In this document: one piece after another, positions 7,386-32,329 of the stretch
How positions within the stretch are numbered: position 1 is the first letter of the stretch
Layout of the letters: every line of letters starts with the position of its first letter
NCBI RefSeq assembly: GCF_000513295.1
Contig: NC_023065.1
Coordinates: 1,364,001-1,428,000, forward strand
From: Magnetospirillum gryphiswaldense MSR-1 v2
GTDB lineage: Bacteria; Pseudomonadota; Alphaproteobacteria; Rhodospirillales; Magnetospirillaceae
DNA: 64,000 nt
Direction of reading: 5' to 3'
Notes under the pieces: model-generated
Database searches by the model: none
Seen by the model: only the letters and a program-made list of their open reading frames with translations
Told to the model about the DNA's origin: nothing
Made by a program: the position numbers and the translations under genes

Positions 7386-9788
7386 TCAGTGGGTCAGCAC
7401 CGCCCCCGCTTCGCCATCCTTGGTGGTGGAAGCGGCGCCATCGGCGGGCTCCTCCCACTCGATGGGGACCGGCATGCGGGTCAACGCCCGGGCCAGCACC
7501 TCGTCCACCGTACCGACCGGCACGATTTCCAGGCCCTTCTTGACGTTATCGGGGATTTCCGCCAAGTCCTTTTCATTGTCCTTGGGGATCAGCACGGTCT
7601 TCAGACCGCCGCGCAACGCCGCCAGCAGCTTTTCCTTGAGGCCGCCGATGGGCAGCACCCGACCGCGCAGGGTGATTTCGCCGGTCATGGCCACTTCACG
7701 CCGCACGGTGATGCCGGTGATGGCCGAAACGATGGCCGTGCACATGGCGATACCGGCGGACGGACCGTCCTTGGGGGTGGCGCCTTCGGGCACGTGGACG
7801 TGGATGTCCTTCTTCTCGAACACCGTCGGCTTGATACCCAAGCTGACCGAACGCGAGCGCACATAGGACCGCGCCGCCTGCACCGATTCCTGCATGACGT
7901 CGCCCAGCTTGCCGGTATGGCTGAAGCTGCCCTTGCCCGGCATGGTCACCGCCTCGATGGTCAGCAATTCGCCGCCCACCTCGGTCCAGGCCAGACCGGT
8001 GACGGCACCGACCATGTCTTCCAGCTCGGCCTCGCCGAAGCGGTACTTGCGCACGCCGGCGTATTTTTCCAGGTTCCTGGGCGTCACCGCCACCTTCAAC
8101 TTGCCCTTGGACACGATCTCGGTGGTGGCCTTGCGGGCTAGGTTAGCCAATTCACGTTCCAGGCTGCGCACCCCGGCTTCGCGGGTGTAATAGCGGCACA
8201 GATCGCGGATGGCGTCGTCGGACACCGTCCATTCACCCTTCTTCAGACCGGCGGCGGTGGCCACCTTGTCGAACAGGTGACGCTTGGCGATTTCCACCTT
8301 TTCGTCCTCGGTGTAGCCCGACAGACGGATCAGTTCCATACGGTCCAGCAACGGCTGCGGCATGCGCAGCGTGTTGGCGGTGGTGACGAACATCACGTCG
8401 GACAGATCGTAATCGACCTCGAGGTAATGGTCGTTGAAGGTGGCATTCTGCTCCGGGTCCAGCACTTCAAGCAGGGCCGAGGACGGATCGCCGCGCCAAT
8501 CGGCGCCCAGCTTGTCGATTTCGTCGAGCAGGAACAGCGGATTGGACGACTTGGCCTTCTTCATGCCCTGAATGATCTTGCCGGGCATGGAGCCGATATA
8601 GGTGCGGCGATGGCCGCGCACTTCGGCTTCGTCGCGCACGCCACCCAAGGAGATGCGGACGAAATTGCGCCCGGTCGCCTGGGCCATGGACTTGCCGAGC
8701 GAGGTCTTGCCGACGCCGGGCGGGCCGACCAGGCACAGGATCGGGCCCTTGACCTTTTCGGTGCGGGTTTGCACCGCCAAGTACTCGACGATGCGTTCCT
8801 TGACCTTCTCAAGCCCGTAATGTTCGGAATTGAGGATCTTTTCCGCCAGCTTGACGTCCTTCTTGACCTTGGTCCGCTTCTTCCACGGAATGGTCAAAAT
8901 CCAGTCCAGGTAATTGCGCACCACGGTGGCTTCCGCCGACATCGGGCTCATGGACTTCAGCTTCTTCAGCTCGGCCAAGGCCTTTTCGCGCGCTTCCTTC
9001 GACAGGCGGGTCTTGGCGATGCGCTCTTCCAGCTCGGCCGATTCGTCCTTGCCGTCGTCGCCTTCGCCCAGTTCCTTCTGGATCGCCTTCAGTTGCTCGT
9101 TCAGATAATACTCGCGCTGGGTCTTCTCCATCTGGCGCTTGACCCGGTTGCGAATCTTCTTTTCCACCTGCAGGACGCCGATCTCGCCTTCCATATAGGA
9201 ATAGACGCGTTCCAGCCGCTCGGCGGTGGTGCCCAACTCCAGCAATTCCTGCTTTTCGGAAATCTTGAGCGACAGGTGCGAGGCCACCGTGTCGGCCAGC
9301 TTGGCGGGGTCTTCGATCTGATTGACCGAGACCAGCACTTCCGGCGGAATCTTCTTGTTGAGCTTGATGTATTGCTCGAACTGGCCGACCACCGAACGGG
9401 ACAGGGCTTCCAGTTCCTGGCCTTCCAACACGCCGTCATCGATCATCTCGGCGGTGGCCTGGAAGAAGGATTCGTTGTCGGTGAAGCCGGTGATGCGGGC
9501 GCGGCGGCCACCTTCCACCAGCACCTTGACGGTGCCGTCGGGCAGCTTCAGCAATTGCAGGACAGTGGACACGGTGCCGACATCGTAAATGTCGGCGGTG
9601 GTCGGATCATCCTGAGCGGCGTTCTTTTGCGCGACCAGCAGGATCTGCTTGTCTTCGCGCATCACGTCTTCCAGCGCGCGCACCGATTTGTCACGACCGA
9701 CAAACAGCGGAACGATCATATGGGGGAAGACGACGATGTCGCGCAGCGGAAGAACGGGGAAGACGTCGCCACGAGCGATTTCGGACAT
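7386..9788 (-). CDS. lon: ATP-dependent Lon protease
   Basis: Cytoplasmic AAA+ serine protease (800 residues, typical length) that degrades misfolded and regulatory proteins. In order, it has an N-terminal LON substrate-binding domain (from [20 protein letters not shown]), a coiled-coil middle region, the AAA module with Walker [10 protein letters not shown] and Walker [11 protein letters not shown], and a C-terminal protease domain. The catalytic Ser lies in [11 protein letters not shown] and the catalytic Lys in the [12 protein letters not shown] region. It follows clpX on the same strand and precedes hupB. A heat-shock-like promoter candidate lies about 70 bp upstream. Confidence 0.98.
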
Positions 9789-28342: not shown

Positions 28343-28371
28343 AAAAAACCCGCCTTTCCGGCGGGTTTTTT
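28343..28371. terminator. Bidirectional terminator between gltA and a small membrane peptide gene
   Basis: AAAAAACCCGCC and GGCGGGTTTTTT flank a 5-base loop, with T-runs on both strands. It serves the convergent transcripts from gltA (plus) and the 37-residue gene (minus). Confidence 0.92.
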
Positions 28372-28486: not shown

Positions 28487-28576
28487 GAACTTCTCCGTTA
28501 ATGACTTCAGCAAGCTATAGCATCCCGGCCCTGCCTGCTGCTATGGTCCCGCGATTTTCTATTTAGGAGTATTTCC

Positions 28577-29215
28577 ATGGCCTCGCAAATTCGCGCTTCG
28601 CATATCCTGCTCATGTACCAGGGCTCCATGCGGTCCACCGCAACCCGTTCCAAGGACGAAGCGCTGGCCATGATCACCGATCTGAAGGCCCAGATCGCCA
28701 AGGGCGCCGACTTCGCCCAACTGGCCGCGCAAAATTCCGATTGTCCGTCGGGCCGTGAAGGCGGCGATTTGGGCACGTTCGGCCCCGGCATGATGGTGCC
28801 CGATTTCGACACCGCCGCCTTCGCCCTGGCAGAAGGCGAGATTTCCGACGTGGTCGAAACCCCGTTCGGCTTTCACCTGATCCAACGCACGGTGCCGGAA
28901 GCGCAGATCCGCGCCTCGCACATCTTGTTGATGTACGAAGGCTCCATGCATTCCTCGGCGGAACGCAGCAAGGCCGAAGCCCTGGCCCAGATCAACGCCA
29001 TCAAGGCCGACATCGCCGCCGGCGCCGATTTCGCCAAGCAGGCCATCGACCATTCCGATTGTCCGTCGGGCCGCGAAGGCGGTGATCTGGGCGATTTCGG
29101 TCGCGGCCAGATGGTCGGCGAATTCGAAACCGCCGCCTTCGCCCTGGATGTGGGCCAGATTTCCGACGTGGTGGAAACCCCGTTCGGCTATCACCTGATC
29201 CAGCGCACGGCCTAA
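28577..29215 (+). CDS. Tandem-duplicated parvulin-type peptidyl-prolyl isomerase
   Basis: Predicted cytoplasmic PPIase (212 residues) made of two complete parvulin (rotamase) domains, about residues 4-105 and 108-211. Each starts QIRASHILLMY and contains SDCPSGREGGDLG, FG.G.MV, ISDVVETPFG and HLIQRT. The two halves align without gaps and are about three quarters identical by eye, so the duplication is recent or homogenised. No signal peptide or membrane anchor, unlike SurA or PpiD. AGGAG precedes the ATG. The CULT-domain gene begins two bases after its stop, so the pair is almost certainly cotranslated. Confidence 0.9.
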   Translation: MASQIRASHILLMYQGSMRSTATRSKDEALAMITDLKAQIAKGADFAQLAAQNSDCPSGREGGDLGTFGPGMMVPDFDTAAFALAEGEISDVVETPFGFHLIQRTVPEAQIRASHILLMYEGSMHSSAERSKAEALAQINAIKADIAAGADFAKQAIDHSDCPSGREGGDLGDFGRGQMVGEFETAAFALDVGQISDVVETPFGYHLIQRTA

Positions 29216-29217
29216 CC

Positions 29218-29592
29218 ATGCCCCTGGATGCCGGGGGACAAAACAGCACCCAGATGGTGCTGGCCCCCGGCGCCAGCATCTTTCGCTGCCGCCAGTGCGG
29301 GCAAACCATCAGCCGCCACGACTGGCTGCTGCCCATGGGCGGCGACCATGAACACGTGGTGTTCAATCCGGCGGGGATGATTTTTTGCGTCTGGTGTTTT
29401 TCCCTGGCGCAAGGCCTGCGCCTGATCGGCGCGCCTTCGGGGGAATTTAGCTGGTTCAAGGGCTATGACTGGACCATCGCCCTGTGCGGCCAATGCGGCA
29501 GCCATCTGGGCTGGCATTATGAAGGCGGCAGCCAACCGCGCACCTTCTTCGGTCTGATCAAGGATCGGTTGGCCGAGGGACCGGCGGATTAG
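29218..29592 (+). CDS. CULT-domain (cereblon-like) protein
   Basis: The 124-residue protein is a single CULT domain, the fold that in human cereblon binds thalidomide and cyclic-imide degrons. Zinc ligands are the Cys pairs C24/C27 (FRCRQCGQ) and C90/C93 (LCGQCGSHLGW). The aromatic cage is W79 (FSWF), W85 (GYDW) and W99, with Y101, F56 and N50 in place. These are the positions I recall from MsCI4, the structurally studied M. gryphiswaldense protein, and I take it to be that protein or a near-identical orthologue. It has almost no ribosome binding site of its own, so it should depend on the parvulin gene two bases upstream. Native bacterial ligand and role are unknown to me. Confidence 0.93.
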   Translation: MPLDAGGQNSTQMVLAPGASIFRCRQCGQTISRHDWLLPMGGDHEHVVFNPAGMIFCVWCFSLAQGLRLIGAPSGEFSWFKGYDWTIALCGQCGSHLGWHYEGGSQPRTFFGLIKDRLAEGPAD

Positions 29593-29610: not shown

Positions 29611-29934
29611 TCAATGGCCGGGATTGACGCGCAGGCGCTCGACCACTTGGCCCTTCTTGAAATGGGAATCGACGATTTCGTCGTAATCGGCGGCTTCCAC
29701 CGGCTGGTACCAGACGCCTTCGGGATAGACCACCATCAACGGGCCGTTGCCGCAAAAGCCCAGACAGCTGGCCTGGGCCAGGCTGACGCCCTTTTCCCAC
29801 AGCATGCCCTTCTGGAACCGGGCCATCATCTGGTCAAACATGGCCGTGCCGCCGCCCTTGGAGGTGCAGCAGCCGCGCGGATGGCCCGCCGGGCGTGAGG
29901 TGGTGCAAACGAACACATGGTATTTATGGGACAT
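29611..29934 (-). CDS. Thioredoxin-like 2Fe-2S ferredoxin
   Basis: Small soluble electron carrier (107 residues) of the Shethna/NuoE-like thioredoxin-fold ferredoxin family. Ligand cysteines fit the family spacing: FVCTTSRP, PRGCC about 12 residues later, then ASCLGFCGNGP with C-x3-C. The C-terminal part (YPEGVWYQPVEAADYDEIVDSHF) is the conserved core of these proteins, often annotated as (2Fe-2S) ferredoxin domain-containing. It is convergent with the CULT gene (18-bp gap). The ribosome binding site AAGGAGAT overlaps an inverted repeat upstream. Confidence 0.9.
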   Translation of the reverse strand: MSHKYHVFVCTTSRPAGHPRGCCTSKGGGTAMFDQMMARFQKGMLWEKGVSLAQASCLGFCGNGPLMVVYPEGVWYQPVEAADYDEIVDSHFKKGQVVERLRVNPGH

Positions 29935-30023: not shown

Positions 30024-30428
30024 TTACTTGCCTTGGCGGGCCGGCAGTTCGTCGGCGCTGCACAGGTCATAGCGGACCATGGCGTTATCGACGGTCTTGC
30101 CGGTCAGCTCGCGCCACGTGTTCATGGCCAGCTGACGTTCGAACGGACCATGCACTTCCAGCGTCTTGCCGGCGGCGATGACGTCGAAGTCGGTATCGGC
30201 GTATTCGCCGCCGACCACGTACCACTGGTCTTCACCCTGCTCGTCATCGCTGCGGATGAAATAGCGGATCATGGCATTGTCGACGGTCTTGCCGGTCAGG
30301 GCGCGCCAGCAGACATGGGCCTCGTGCTCACCGAAGGGGCCGAAGCGCTCTTCCTTGTGACCGGGGGCAATGGTGGTAAAGGCGGTGTCGGCGTATTCGC
30401 CGCCGACGACATAGAACTTCTTGGCCAT
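30024..30428 (-). CDS. DUF4170-like protein with an internal duplication
   Basis: Soluble protein of 134 residues consisting of two copies of a roughly 60-residue module. The first starts KFYVVGGEYADTAF (residue 4), the second QWYVVGGEYADTDF (about residue 69). Both share GPF and end W-R-x-LTGKTVDNAM-[IV]-RY. I associate the VVGGEY module with DUF4170, an uncharacterised family of Rhodospirillales. The frame extends to 30557, but AGGGGAA upstream of the ATG at 30428 fixes the start. Function unknown; no catalytic motif is evident. Confidence 0.8.
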   Translation of the reverse strand: MAKKFYVVGGEYADTAFTTIAPGHKEERFGPFGEHEAHVCWRALTGKTVDNAMIRYFIRSDDEQGEDQWYVVGGEYADTDFDVIAAGKTLEVHGPFERQLAMNTWRELTGKTVDNAMVRYDLCSADELPARQGK

Positions 30429-30941: not shown

Positions 30942-30988
30942 CATGGGGCTGGACATCGGCCTGACTTGGCCTTATGTCCAGCCCCATG
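30942..30988 (+). repeat. 15-bp perfect inverted repeat covering the trmFO start
   Basis: CATGGGGCTGGACAT (30942-30956) and ATGTCCAGCCCCATG (30974-30988) flank 17 bases that contain a further GGCC/GGCC pair. The right arm contains both possible trmFO start codons (30974 and 30986). It may terminate the upstream gene or fold over the trmFO initiation region. Confidence 0.7.
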
Positions 30989-32329
30989 AATACCGATAAA
31001 ACCATCCACGTCATCGGCGGTGGCTTGGCCGGCTGCGAAGCCGCCTGGCAGATCGCCAAACGCGGCCTCTGCGTCACCTTGCACGAGATGCGCCCGCACC
31101 GGCAAACCCCGGCCCACCAGACCGACGGGCTGGCGGAACTGGTGTGTTCCAACTCTCTGCGCTCCGACGACGCCGATTACAACGCCGTCGGCCTACTGCA
31201 TGAAGAGTTGCGCAAGGCCGGGTCGCTGATCATGGATTGCGCCGACCGCAACAAGGTGCCCGCCGGCGGCGCCCTGGCGGTGGACCGCGACGGCTTTTCC
31301 GCCTCGGTCGAACAGGAATTGGCCGCACATCCCAACGTCACCATCCTGCGCCAGGAAATGGCCGGCCTGCCGCCGGCAGAATGGGACAACGTGGTCATCG
31401 CCACCGGCCCCTTGACCTCGGAACCCCTGGCCCAGGCCATCCGCAGCGTCACCGGCCAGGATTCGCTGTCGTTCTTCGACGCCATCGCGCCGATCATCCA
31501 TAAGGACAGCATCGACTTTTCCAAGGCGTGGTTCCAGTCGCGCTACGACAAGGGCGAGGGCTCGGATTACATCAATTGCCCGCTGACCAAGGACGAATAT
31601 TACGCCTTCATCGACGCCCTGCTGGCCGGTGAAAAGGTGCCGTTCCACGATTGGGAAAAGGACGTGCCCTATTTCGAGGGCTGCCTGCCCATCGAGGTGA
31701 TGGCCGAACGCGGGCGCGAAACCCTGGCCTACGGCCCCGGCAAGCCGGTGGGGCTGACCAATCCCTATGGCCCCAAGCCCTATGCGGTGATCCAGCTGCG
31801 CCAGGACAACAAGCTGGGCACGCTTTACAACATGGTCGGCTTCCAGACCAAGCTGCGCCACGGCGAGCAGACCCGCATCTTCCGCACCATTCCCGGCCTG
31901 GAGGCGGCGGAATTCGCCCGTCTGGGCGGCCTGCACCGCAACACCTTCGTCAACGGCCCACGCGTTTTGGACCAGCAATTGCGGCTGAAGGCCCAGCCCC
32001 GCCTGCGTCTGGCCGGTCAGATCACCGGCTGCGAGGGCTATGTGGAAAGCACCAGTATCGGCTTTCTTGCCGGTCTCGCCGCCAGCGCCCAGGCGCTGGG
32101 ACACGATTTCGTCGCCCCGCCGCCAACCAGCGCCCTGGGGGCCATCCTGACCCATGTCACCGGCGGCGCCCACGCCGACACCTATCAGCCCATGAACATC
32201 AATTTCGGCCTGTTCCCGCCGGCGCCCGAGCGGGACGAACGGGGCAAGAAGATCAAGGGCCGCGACCGCAAGAAGCTGTACGCCGAACGCGCGCGCGCCG
32301 ATCTGGCGCCGTGGTTATCACAACTTTAA
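30974..32329 (+). CDS. trmFO: Methylenetetrahydrofolate--tRNA-(uracil-5-)-methyltransferase TrmFO
   Basis: FAD- and folate-dependent enzyme making ribothymidine at U54 of tRNA. The N-terminal FAD motif reads [18 protein letters not shown], followed by the family-specific [30 protein letters not shown]. The second half contains [17 protein letters not shown] and [16 protein letters not shown]. At 451 residues it has the usual size. Two starts are possible (30974, or 30986 giving [13 protein letters not shown]); neither has a clear ribosome binding site and both lie within a strong hairpin. A good terminator follows at 32357. Confidence 0.96.

Follow-up and report, generated by a model that had tools for sequence, protein, structure and literature searches.

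A stand-alone CULT protein behind a doubled parvulin in Magnetospirillum gryphiswaldense: probably inherited gene order rather than a partnership

The window analysed here is the whole 64,000-nucleotide stretch at positions 1364001-1428000 of the single-contig genome (4,365,796 bases) of Magnetospirillum gryphiswaldense MSR-1 v2. The locus of interest within it consists of two adjacent forward-strand genes, one encoding a parvulin with a doubled domain and the other a small CULT protein, followed by three genes of a conserved block:

28343..28371, forward strand: intrinsic-terminator-like hairpin after citrate synthase, with a 12-pair stem and a T run
28565..28569, forward strand: AGGAG Shine-Dalgarno of the parvulin gene, from the sequence and a duplex energy of -6.8
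28577..29215, forward strand: double parvulin, a Pin1-like peptidyl-prolyl isomerase of 212 aa, from its open reading frame and Pfam domains
28577..28894, forward strand: parvulin repeat 1, from alignment to 1j6y and Pin1
28895..29212, forward strand: parvulin repeat 2, from alignment to 1j6y and Pin1
29213..29220, forward strand: junction of the stop TAA (29213-29215), CC and the start ATG, a stop-start coupling geometry, from the sequence
29218..29592, forward strand: CULT protein of 124 aa, from its open reading frame and a full-length PDB match
29611..29934, reverse strand: 2Fe-2S ferredoxin-like gene, convergent, in the conserved block (PF01257 and NF041612, below cut-offs)
30024..30428, reverse strand: DUF4170 gene in the conserved block, its ATG at 30428 placed by comparison with relatives
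30974..32329, forward strand: TrmFO-like gene in the conserved block (PF01134, GidA family)

The CULT start lies two bases behind the parvulin stop, as an earlier sequence-only reading of the two open reading frames (28577-29215 and 29218-29592) had it. The same reading was right that CULT lacks a good ribosome binding site of its own, the duplex energy with the 16S tail being -1.7 kcal/mol at its start versus -6.8 kcal/mol at the parvulin start. An internal in-frame ATG at 29254 scores -8.6, but its GGGGG sits 16 nt upstream, and the motif MPxDA at the first CULT ATG is kept in most relatives. The spacing of the two genes is by itself ordinary and not beyond chance, since 13 of 58 window genes, CULT counted, start between -8 and +10 nt from a co-directional upstream stop in a count that comes from a rough gene caller and includes at least one doubtful open reading frame. 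On the upstream side, the hairpin at 28343..28371 probably sets the parvulin-CULT unit apart from gltA; three terminator-like sites were found against 2.3 expected in shuffles, and this one is called from its stem and T run. The name TrmFO for the gene at 30974..32329 is our assumption, and the DUF4170 protein (30024-30428, reverse strand) has two stretches of the same domain, an internal duplication.

The product of the first gene matches PF13616 (6.9e-56) and PF00639 (1.1e-53) above cut-off, each along two stretches, in agreement with the doubling first read from the sequence. It starts straight with repeat 1, and no WW domain was matched in it at E 0.1. Each repeat aligns best with 1J6Y, which we take to be an Arabidopsis parvulin, and then with human Pin1. 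The His, Cys, Met, Phe and His catalytic positions are present in both repeats of the alignment, with Pin1 numbering and the catalytic and phosphate-binding roles of the aligned residues assigned as we presume them to be. Two of the three phosphate-binding basic residues of Pin1 are gone from repeat 1 (K63 and R68 replaced by Met, R69 present), and in repeat 2 K63, R68 and R69 correspond to Met, Met and His. The combination that marks Pin1, a WW domain together with the basic phosphate-binding residues, is not found in the double parvulin, which is best explained as a cytoplasmic Pin1-like parvulin. In a tree of 43 parvulin domains the first repeats of six genomes group together (87/81), as do their six second repeats (100/99), and both groups join four outside rows in an unresolved fork. 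With this moderate tree support, parvulin was probably doubled once, before the six genomes split.

The second gene encodes a CULT domain alone: its 124 residues align over their whole length, residues 1-124, to PDB chains of MsCI4 ('Cereblon isoform 4') with an E-value of 2.5e-85, and the open reading frame has no Pfam match to a Lon-like domain. The two proteins are identical at 121 of 124 positions, and the three differences, at residues 34, 57 and 108, all fall outside the cage and zinc residues (cage F77, W79, W85 and W99; zinc cysteines C24, C27, C90 and C93; Y101). The pocket tryptophans W79, W85 and W99, recognised in the sequence-only reading, are present, and they are named as cage residues in the available part of PMC8900816. 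CULT reached no Pfam family at cut-off (Yippee-Mis18 gave 23.0 bits against a cut-off of 26.6) and has no NCBIfam match. LonN matches do occur in an 816-aa open frame on the minus strand (window 9189-9761), about 20 kb from CULT and presumably a Lon protease, and also in a second protein encoded elsewhere in the genome; nothing ties these LonN proteins to CULT, and the nearness of the frame, set against the Lon-like domain of human cereblon, is probably coincidence.

Relatives of CULT were sought with two patterns, one containing F77, W79, F80 and W85 and the other N50 and P51, over one genome per species (84,980 species), giving 356 CULT relatives. The best 80 were used; they over-represent near relatives, a bias that favours a parvulin link. 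W99 and the zinc cysteines C24, C27, C90 and C93 are identical in all of the best 80 of the 356 loci. The same is true of F77, W79 and W85, identities partly demanded by the search patterns. Because the patterns asked for F77-W85 or N50-P51, W99 and the zinc cysteines give the clean evidence of conservation, while 19 of 19 sequences recovered by profile or protein search carry W79, W85 and W99. Tyr and Phe each occupy position 101 in 40 of the best 80 of 356 loci. Values of dN/dS between 0.12 and 0.54 over 15 pairs indicate that CULT evolves under purifying selection, and its dN exceeds that of parvulin in all 15 pairs. Synonymous divergence is also higher in CULT than in the adjacent parvulin in several L003-L007 pairs (G004-G008, 1.09 versus 0.25), though not in every pair (G000-G012, 0.30 versus 0.36), and this excess perhaps reflects weaker codon bias or a separate history. 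A phage or plasmid origin found no match in 50,697 phage and 72,556 plasmid records, nor did a single-protein query match CULT in IMG/VR; these searches may pass over records that come very close to the window genome.

In the genus, parvulin is present in 13 of 13 genomes and CULT in eight, the G002 copy being truncated. Parvulin is doubled in six genomes, all six of which have CULT, and single in seven, two of which have it (G009 and, truncated, G002). Across the 55 genomes of the GTDB family CULT occurs in 20 and parvulin, at E 1e-20, in 37: both genes in 19, parvulin alone in 18, CULT alone in one (G021) and neither in 17. Parvulin is thus found in 19 of 20 CULT genomes versus 18 of 35 CULT-less ones, an excess that shared ancestry would also give. 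In a class sample, drawn from a larger group than the family, CULT was found in 5 of 385 genomes, its own genome counted and the match in G176 being weak (E 3.9e-4). A link between CULT and protein-isoaspartate methyltransferase was considered and dropped as uninformative, PF01135 being present in 53 of the 55 family genomes.

The sequence-only reading had named uniqueness of the gene pair to one strain as a finding that would refute its proposal; such uniqueness was not observed, as members of the family share the neighbourhood. All 19 family genomes having both genes carry them on one strand and no more than about 7 kb apart, and in the genus parvulin lies close by in every one of the eight CULT genomes, the truncated remnant included. 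The genes abut, at 2-7 nt, in six of the 19 (G000, G005, G012, G004, G009 and G048). A stretch of 109 nt that includes a palindrome separates them in G003 and G008 (L006 and L007; fold -69.0 and -67.4 kcal/mol), where GGAGG precedes CULT (-9.5 and -10.2 kcal/mol). Since CULT has its own GGAGG where the palindrome parts the genes, its translation would appear to go on without coupling there. In G036 and G040 the interval is about 360 nt long and may hold a small open reading frame on the opposite strand, and PPK2 lies between the two genes in G039 (by Pfam scan) and G038 (by sequence), CULT in G039 starting 3 nt behind PPK2 at -0.5 kcal/mol. Longer stretches part them in G022, G033, G042, G043, G046 and G049. 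The rule that a Shine-Dalgarno goes with separation is imperfect: the abutting pair of G009 has a -6.2 site, and the separated pairs of G022 and G036 have none. The truncated CULT of G002 (L074:7216-8977) lies against an open reading frame that looks by sequence like a tyrosine integrase, as if an island had inserted into the CULT gene, with a PF05014 nucleoside deoxyribosyltransferase gene between parvulin and the remnant.

Upstream of parvulin stands citrate synthase in the six doubled-parvulin genomes and a gene resembling TrmH/SpoU, as judged by a look at the sequence and its homologs, in the other relatives examined. After CULT, most family loci continue, directly or after 2-3 kb, with the ferredoxin-like, DUF4170 and TrmFO-like genes; G021 and G002 are exceptions, G049 has no DUF4170 match and the G046 sequence examined does not reach that far. 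Five genomes of the genus are CULT-less. The single parvulin remains beside the ferredoxin/DUF4170 genes in G006, G010 and G011, so CULT can be absent with parvulin still in the locus; this arrangement was not seen in the locus of G001, and in G007 the contig ends there.

Parvulin lies upstream of CULT, on the same strand and within 8 kb, in 12 of the best 80 of 356 loci, all 12 in the family, and the sole non-family neighbour case among these 80 is L154 (Magnetospira), in which parvulin stands beside CULT but divergently. A parvulin of this type (E 1e-20) was found anywhere in the genome in 11 of 25 CULT genomes and was missing from 14, the 25 being hand-picked from the 80, mostly from outside the family though including the family genome G021 (L112), with many metagenome-assembled genomes that are maybe incomplete. 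The check on co-occurrence suggested in the earlier reading thus gave parvulin in 19 of 20 CULT genomes of the family, while across lineages, in the best 80 of 356 loci and the 25 genomes, the two genes were not found together as a recurrent neighbourhood.

Tight junctions upstream of CULT are common and varied. At least 38 of the best 80 of 356 loci have an open reading frame that ends 45-145 nt ahead of the first zinc Cys, and this tight upstream frame is parvulin in 4 of 38, or 5 of 39 once L098 is added; the count comes from a simple caller with three upstream frames per locus, which missed the L098 parvulin and maybe others, and the upstream frames of L108 and L112, both within the 38, are possibly spurious. 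Among 18 tight upstream proteins scanned, 16 had Pfam matches, of 15 kinds, and two had none. The kinds are Der, SUMT-HemD, short-chain dehydrogenase (two), HIT, EAL, P-type ATPase, M23, TatD, DJ-1, histidine kinase, GNAT, UPF0114, metallophosphoesterase, TPR and, below cut-off, DUF2846. Coupling geometry without a strong Shine-Dalgarno recurs behind Der in L102 and L109 (0 nt, -3.0 kcal/mol). Because CULT follows Der, PPK2 and others equally tightly, stop-start coupling, as predicted from these junctions, is no evidence of a partnership with parvulin.

A universal CULT neighbour did not emerge, as clustering of the open reading frames around the best 80 of 356 loci gave clade-specific neighbours. 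A parvulin-like match in L128, L129, L141, L142, L144 and L145 was set aside: it is encoded on the opposite strand, 5.9-6.8 kb downstream of CULT, and the representative of its cluster, of 629 aa, is not a window-type parvulin. Nine Desulfobulbales-type CULT loci (L115, L128, L129, L139, L141, L142, L145, L146 and L152) have CULT after an adenylate-kinase-like gene, identified by a look at the sequence, and a fused SUMT-HemD gene, identified by scan in L115; this order is a second clade-specific CULT setting.

These observations bear first on the proposal, made in the sequence-only reading, of a protein-damage recognition pair, in which isomerase and CULT reader would jointly handle proteins that carry damage and would be held at matching amounts by the coupling. 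The stop-start geometry of the junction, the linkage in all 19 family genomes that have the two, the restriction of doubled parvulin to CULT genomes (6 of 6 in the genus) and the binding of a cyclic-imide dipeptide by MsCI4, as given in the available part of the literature, all speak for it. They are outweighed by the retention of parvulin in 18 of the 35 family genomes that lack CULT, by CULT abutting unrelated genes just as tightly while only 12 of the best 80 of 356 loci have a same-strand parvulin upstream, and by the 14 of 25 CULT genomes in which this parvulin type was not found at E 1e-20. Moreover, the doubling looks like one event, so that its association with CULT has no independent replicate, and an insertion parts the genes in two of the six genomes that carry the doubling. 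We consider joint action improbable, and the functional pair found no support.

A second possibility, that CULT senses or buffers uridine or uracil and that its neighbours are irrelevant or loosely linked to nucleotides, draws on the binding of uridine by MsCI4 in the manner of thalidomide, with cytidine and thymidine not bound (PMC4449219, available part). The PF05014 gene between parvulin and the CULT remnant of G002, its homolog beside parvulin in CULT-less G011, and the HIT and PPK2 genes ahead of CULT in some genomes would fit such a role, but the neighbours are clade-specific and no nucleotide gene recurs widely around the best 80 of 356 loci. In the same portion of PMC4449219 the authors state that they found no biological context for uridine; the present analysis met none for imides. 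This explanation of the locus is rather unlikely, if less so than joint action.

Partial unfolding of MsCI4 upon ligand release in crystals, described in the accessible text of PMC4449219, raises a third idea, that parvulin is a folding helper for a CULT protein that is partly unfolded without ligand. P51, a residue that one of the search patterns demanded, is present in 78 of the best 80 of 356 loci. Against such help, MsCI4 has been expressed and purified from E. coli, and so without this parvulin (PMC8900816, as far as its text is available), and in 68 of the best 80 of 356 loci the stretch examined shows no such parvulin on the same strand ahead of CULT. We regard the idea as very improbable.

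We therefore favour, with a probability of roughly 0.75, the reading that this is a small transcription unit made up of two ordinary genes and that the parvulin-CULT link is inherited gene order, not partnership. The first would be a Pin1-like parvulin that underwent domain doubling, probably a single time, in an ancestor of the six Magnetospirillum-type genomes, and the second a near-identical MsCI4 ortholog, a free-standing beta-tent protein pinned by zinc, with a tryptophan cage that would hold small cyclic imides and uracil rings. CULT would be translated by stop-start coupling, inferred here for the living cell, behind whichever gene lies upstream (parvulin, PPK2, Der, SDR or others) and from its own Shine-Dalgarno in genomes where parvulin and CULT stand apart. 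The same-strand linkage in 19 of 19 genomes and the contrast between doubled (6 of 6) and single (2 of 7) parvulins with CULT count against inherited order, and a real but dispensable link between the two is possible.

Since cage and zinc site are kept while neighbours vary, the conserved function probably belongs to CULT alone. Our best guess at the native role, held at somewhat less than even odds, is that CULT alone reads C-terminal cyclic imides on damaged proteins; uridine or uracil sensing is a less likely role, and something else accounts for the remainder. The test of C-terminal cyclic-imide binding put forward by the earlier reading has practically been carried out already, with the almost identical MsCI4: PDB 8BC7, listed under the MsCI4 sequence in our PDB match, contains the QcQ degron dipeptide according to a figure legend in the available part of PMC10641816. 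It is conceivable, though a long shot, that free-standing CULT proteins are ubiquitin-independent readers of damaged C termini, for example delivering or shielding cyclic-imide-ended proteins, and that one lineage within Magnetospirillum harnessed a doubled parvulin to remodel the clients in a young repair or triage module. If true, this would be a lineage-specific module in which the doubled parvulin remodels the cyclic-imide-ended clients of CULT.

The function of bacterial CULT is the question behind a workhorse of drug discovery. The cage and zinc site kept in all of the best 80 of 356 loci, with no fixed partner gene seen, constrain the answer, and one family offers natural controls in parvulin without CULT, a truncated CULT and a pair parted by insertion. 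In agreement with the sequence-only reading, the literature examined, in the parts available, gives no native role in bacteria. A search largely without subscription papers found nothing joining cereblon, parvulin and bacteria, matched Magnetospirillum with parvulin in a Burkholderia paper only, and met the parvulin-CULT pairing in no paper. MGR_0879 was matched in PMC4287342 only, the text of which does not contain 'operon', 'parvulin' or 'prolyl', and the available parts of PMC11974815, PMC12794332, PMC13001092 and PMC11480361 concern human or eukaryotic cereblon, with nothing on bacterial CULT.

Among known systems, Pin1-type parvulins (Arabidopsis 1J6Y, human Pin1) align with each window repeat along nearly its whole length, catalytic positions included. 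Unlike these and E. coli PpiC, the window protein has two repeats per chain and no WW domain, and its basic phosphate-binding loop is shorter and mostly lost. To our knowledge bacteria are without DDB1 and ubiquitin, and the Lon-like domain fused to CULT that marks the cereblon E3 ligase adaptor was not found in the window CULT. The thalidomide-binding domain of human cereblon is, by sequence, the same domain as the window CULT; human cereblon has an additional Lon-like domain, which the window CULT lacks, and the bacterial model and the human domain share 36% identity and a near-identical structure (PMC4287342, available part). Closest is MsCI4 (MGR_0879, cereblon isoform 4 of Magnetospirillum gryphiswaldense; PDB 4V2Y, 7PS9 and 8BC7), a protein of that species (PMC4287342, PMC8900816) with reported in vitro binding of thalidomide or cyclic imides (PMC8900816, PMC10641816), all as given in the accessible text. 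MsCI4 has long served laboratories and crystallographers as a model for cereblon, the target of thalidomide. The window CULT has the same length and an unchanged cage and zinc site, with Cys in place of Arg57; by its three substitutions the window genome would be a close relative of the MsCI4 source, not necessarily the identical strain. Judged by these comparisons, the window CULT is a near-identical ortholog of a known protein and the doubled parvulin an arrangement of a known family.
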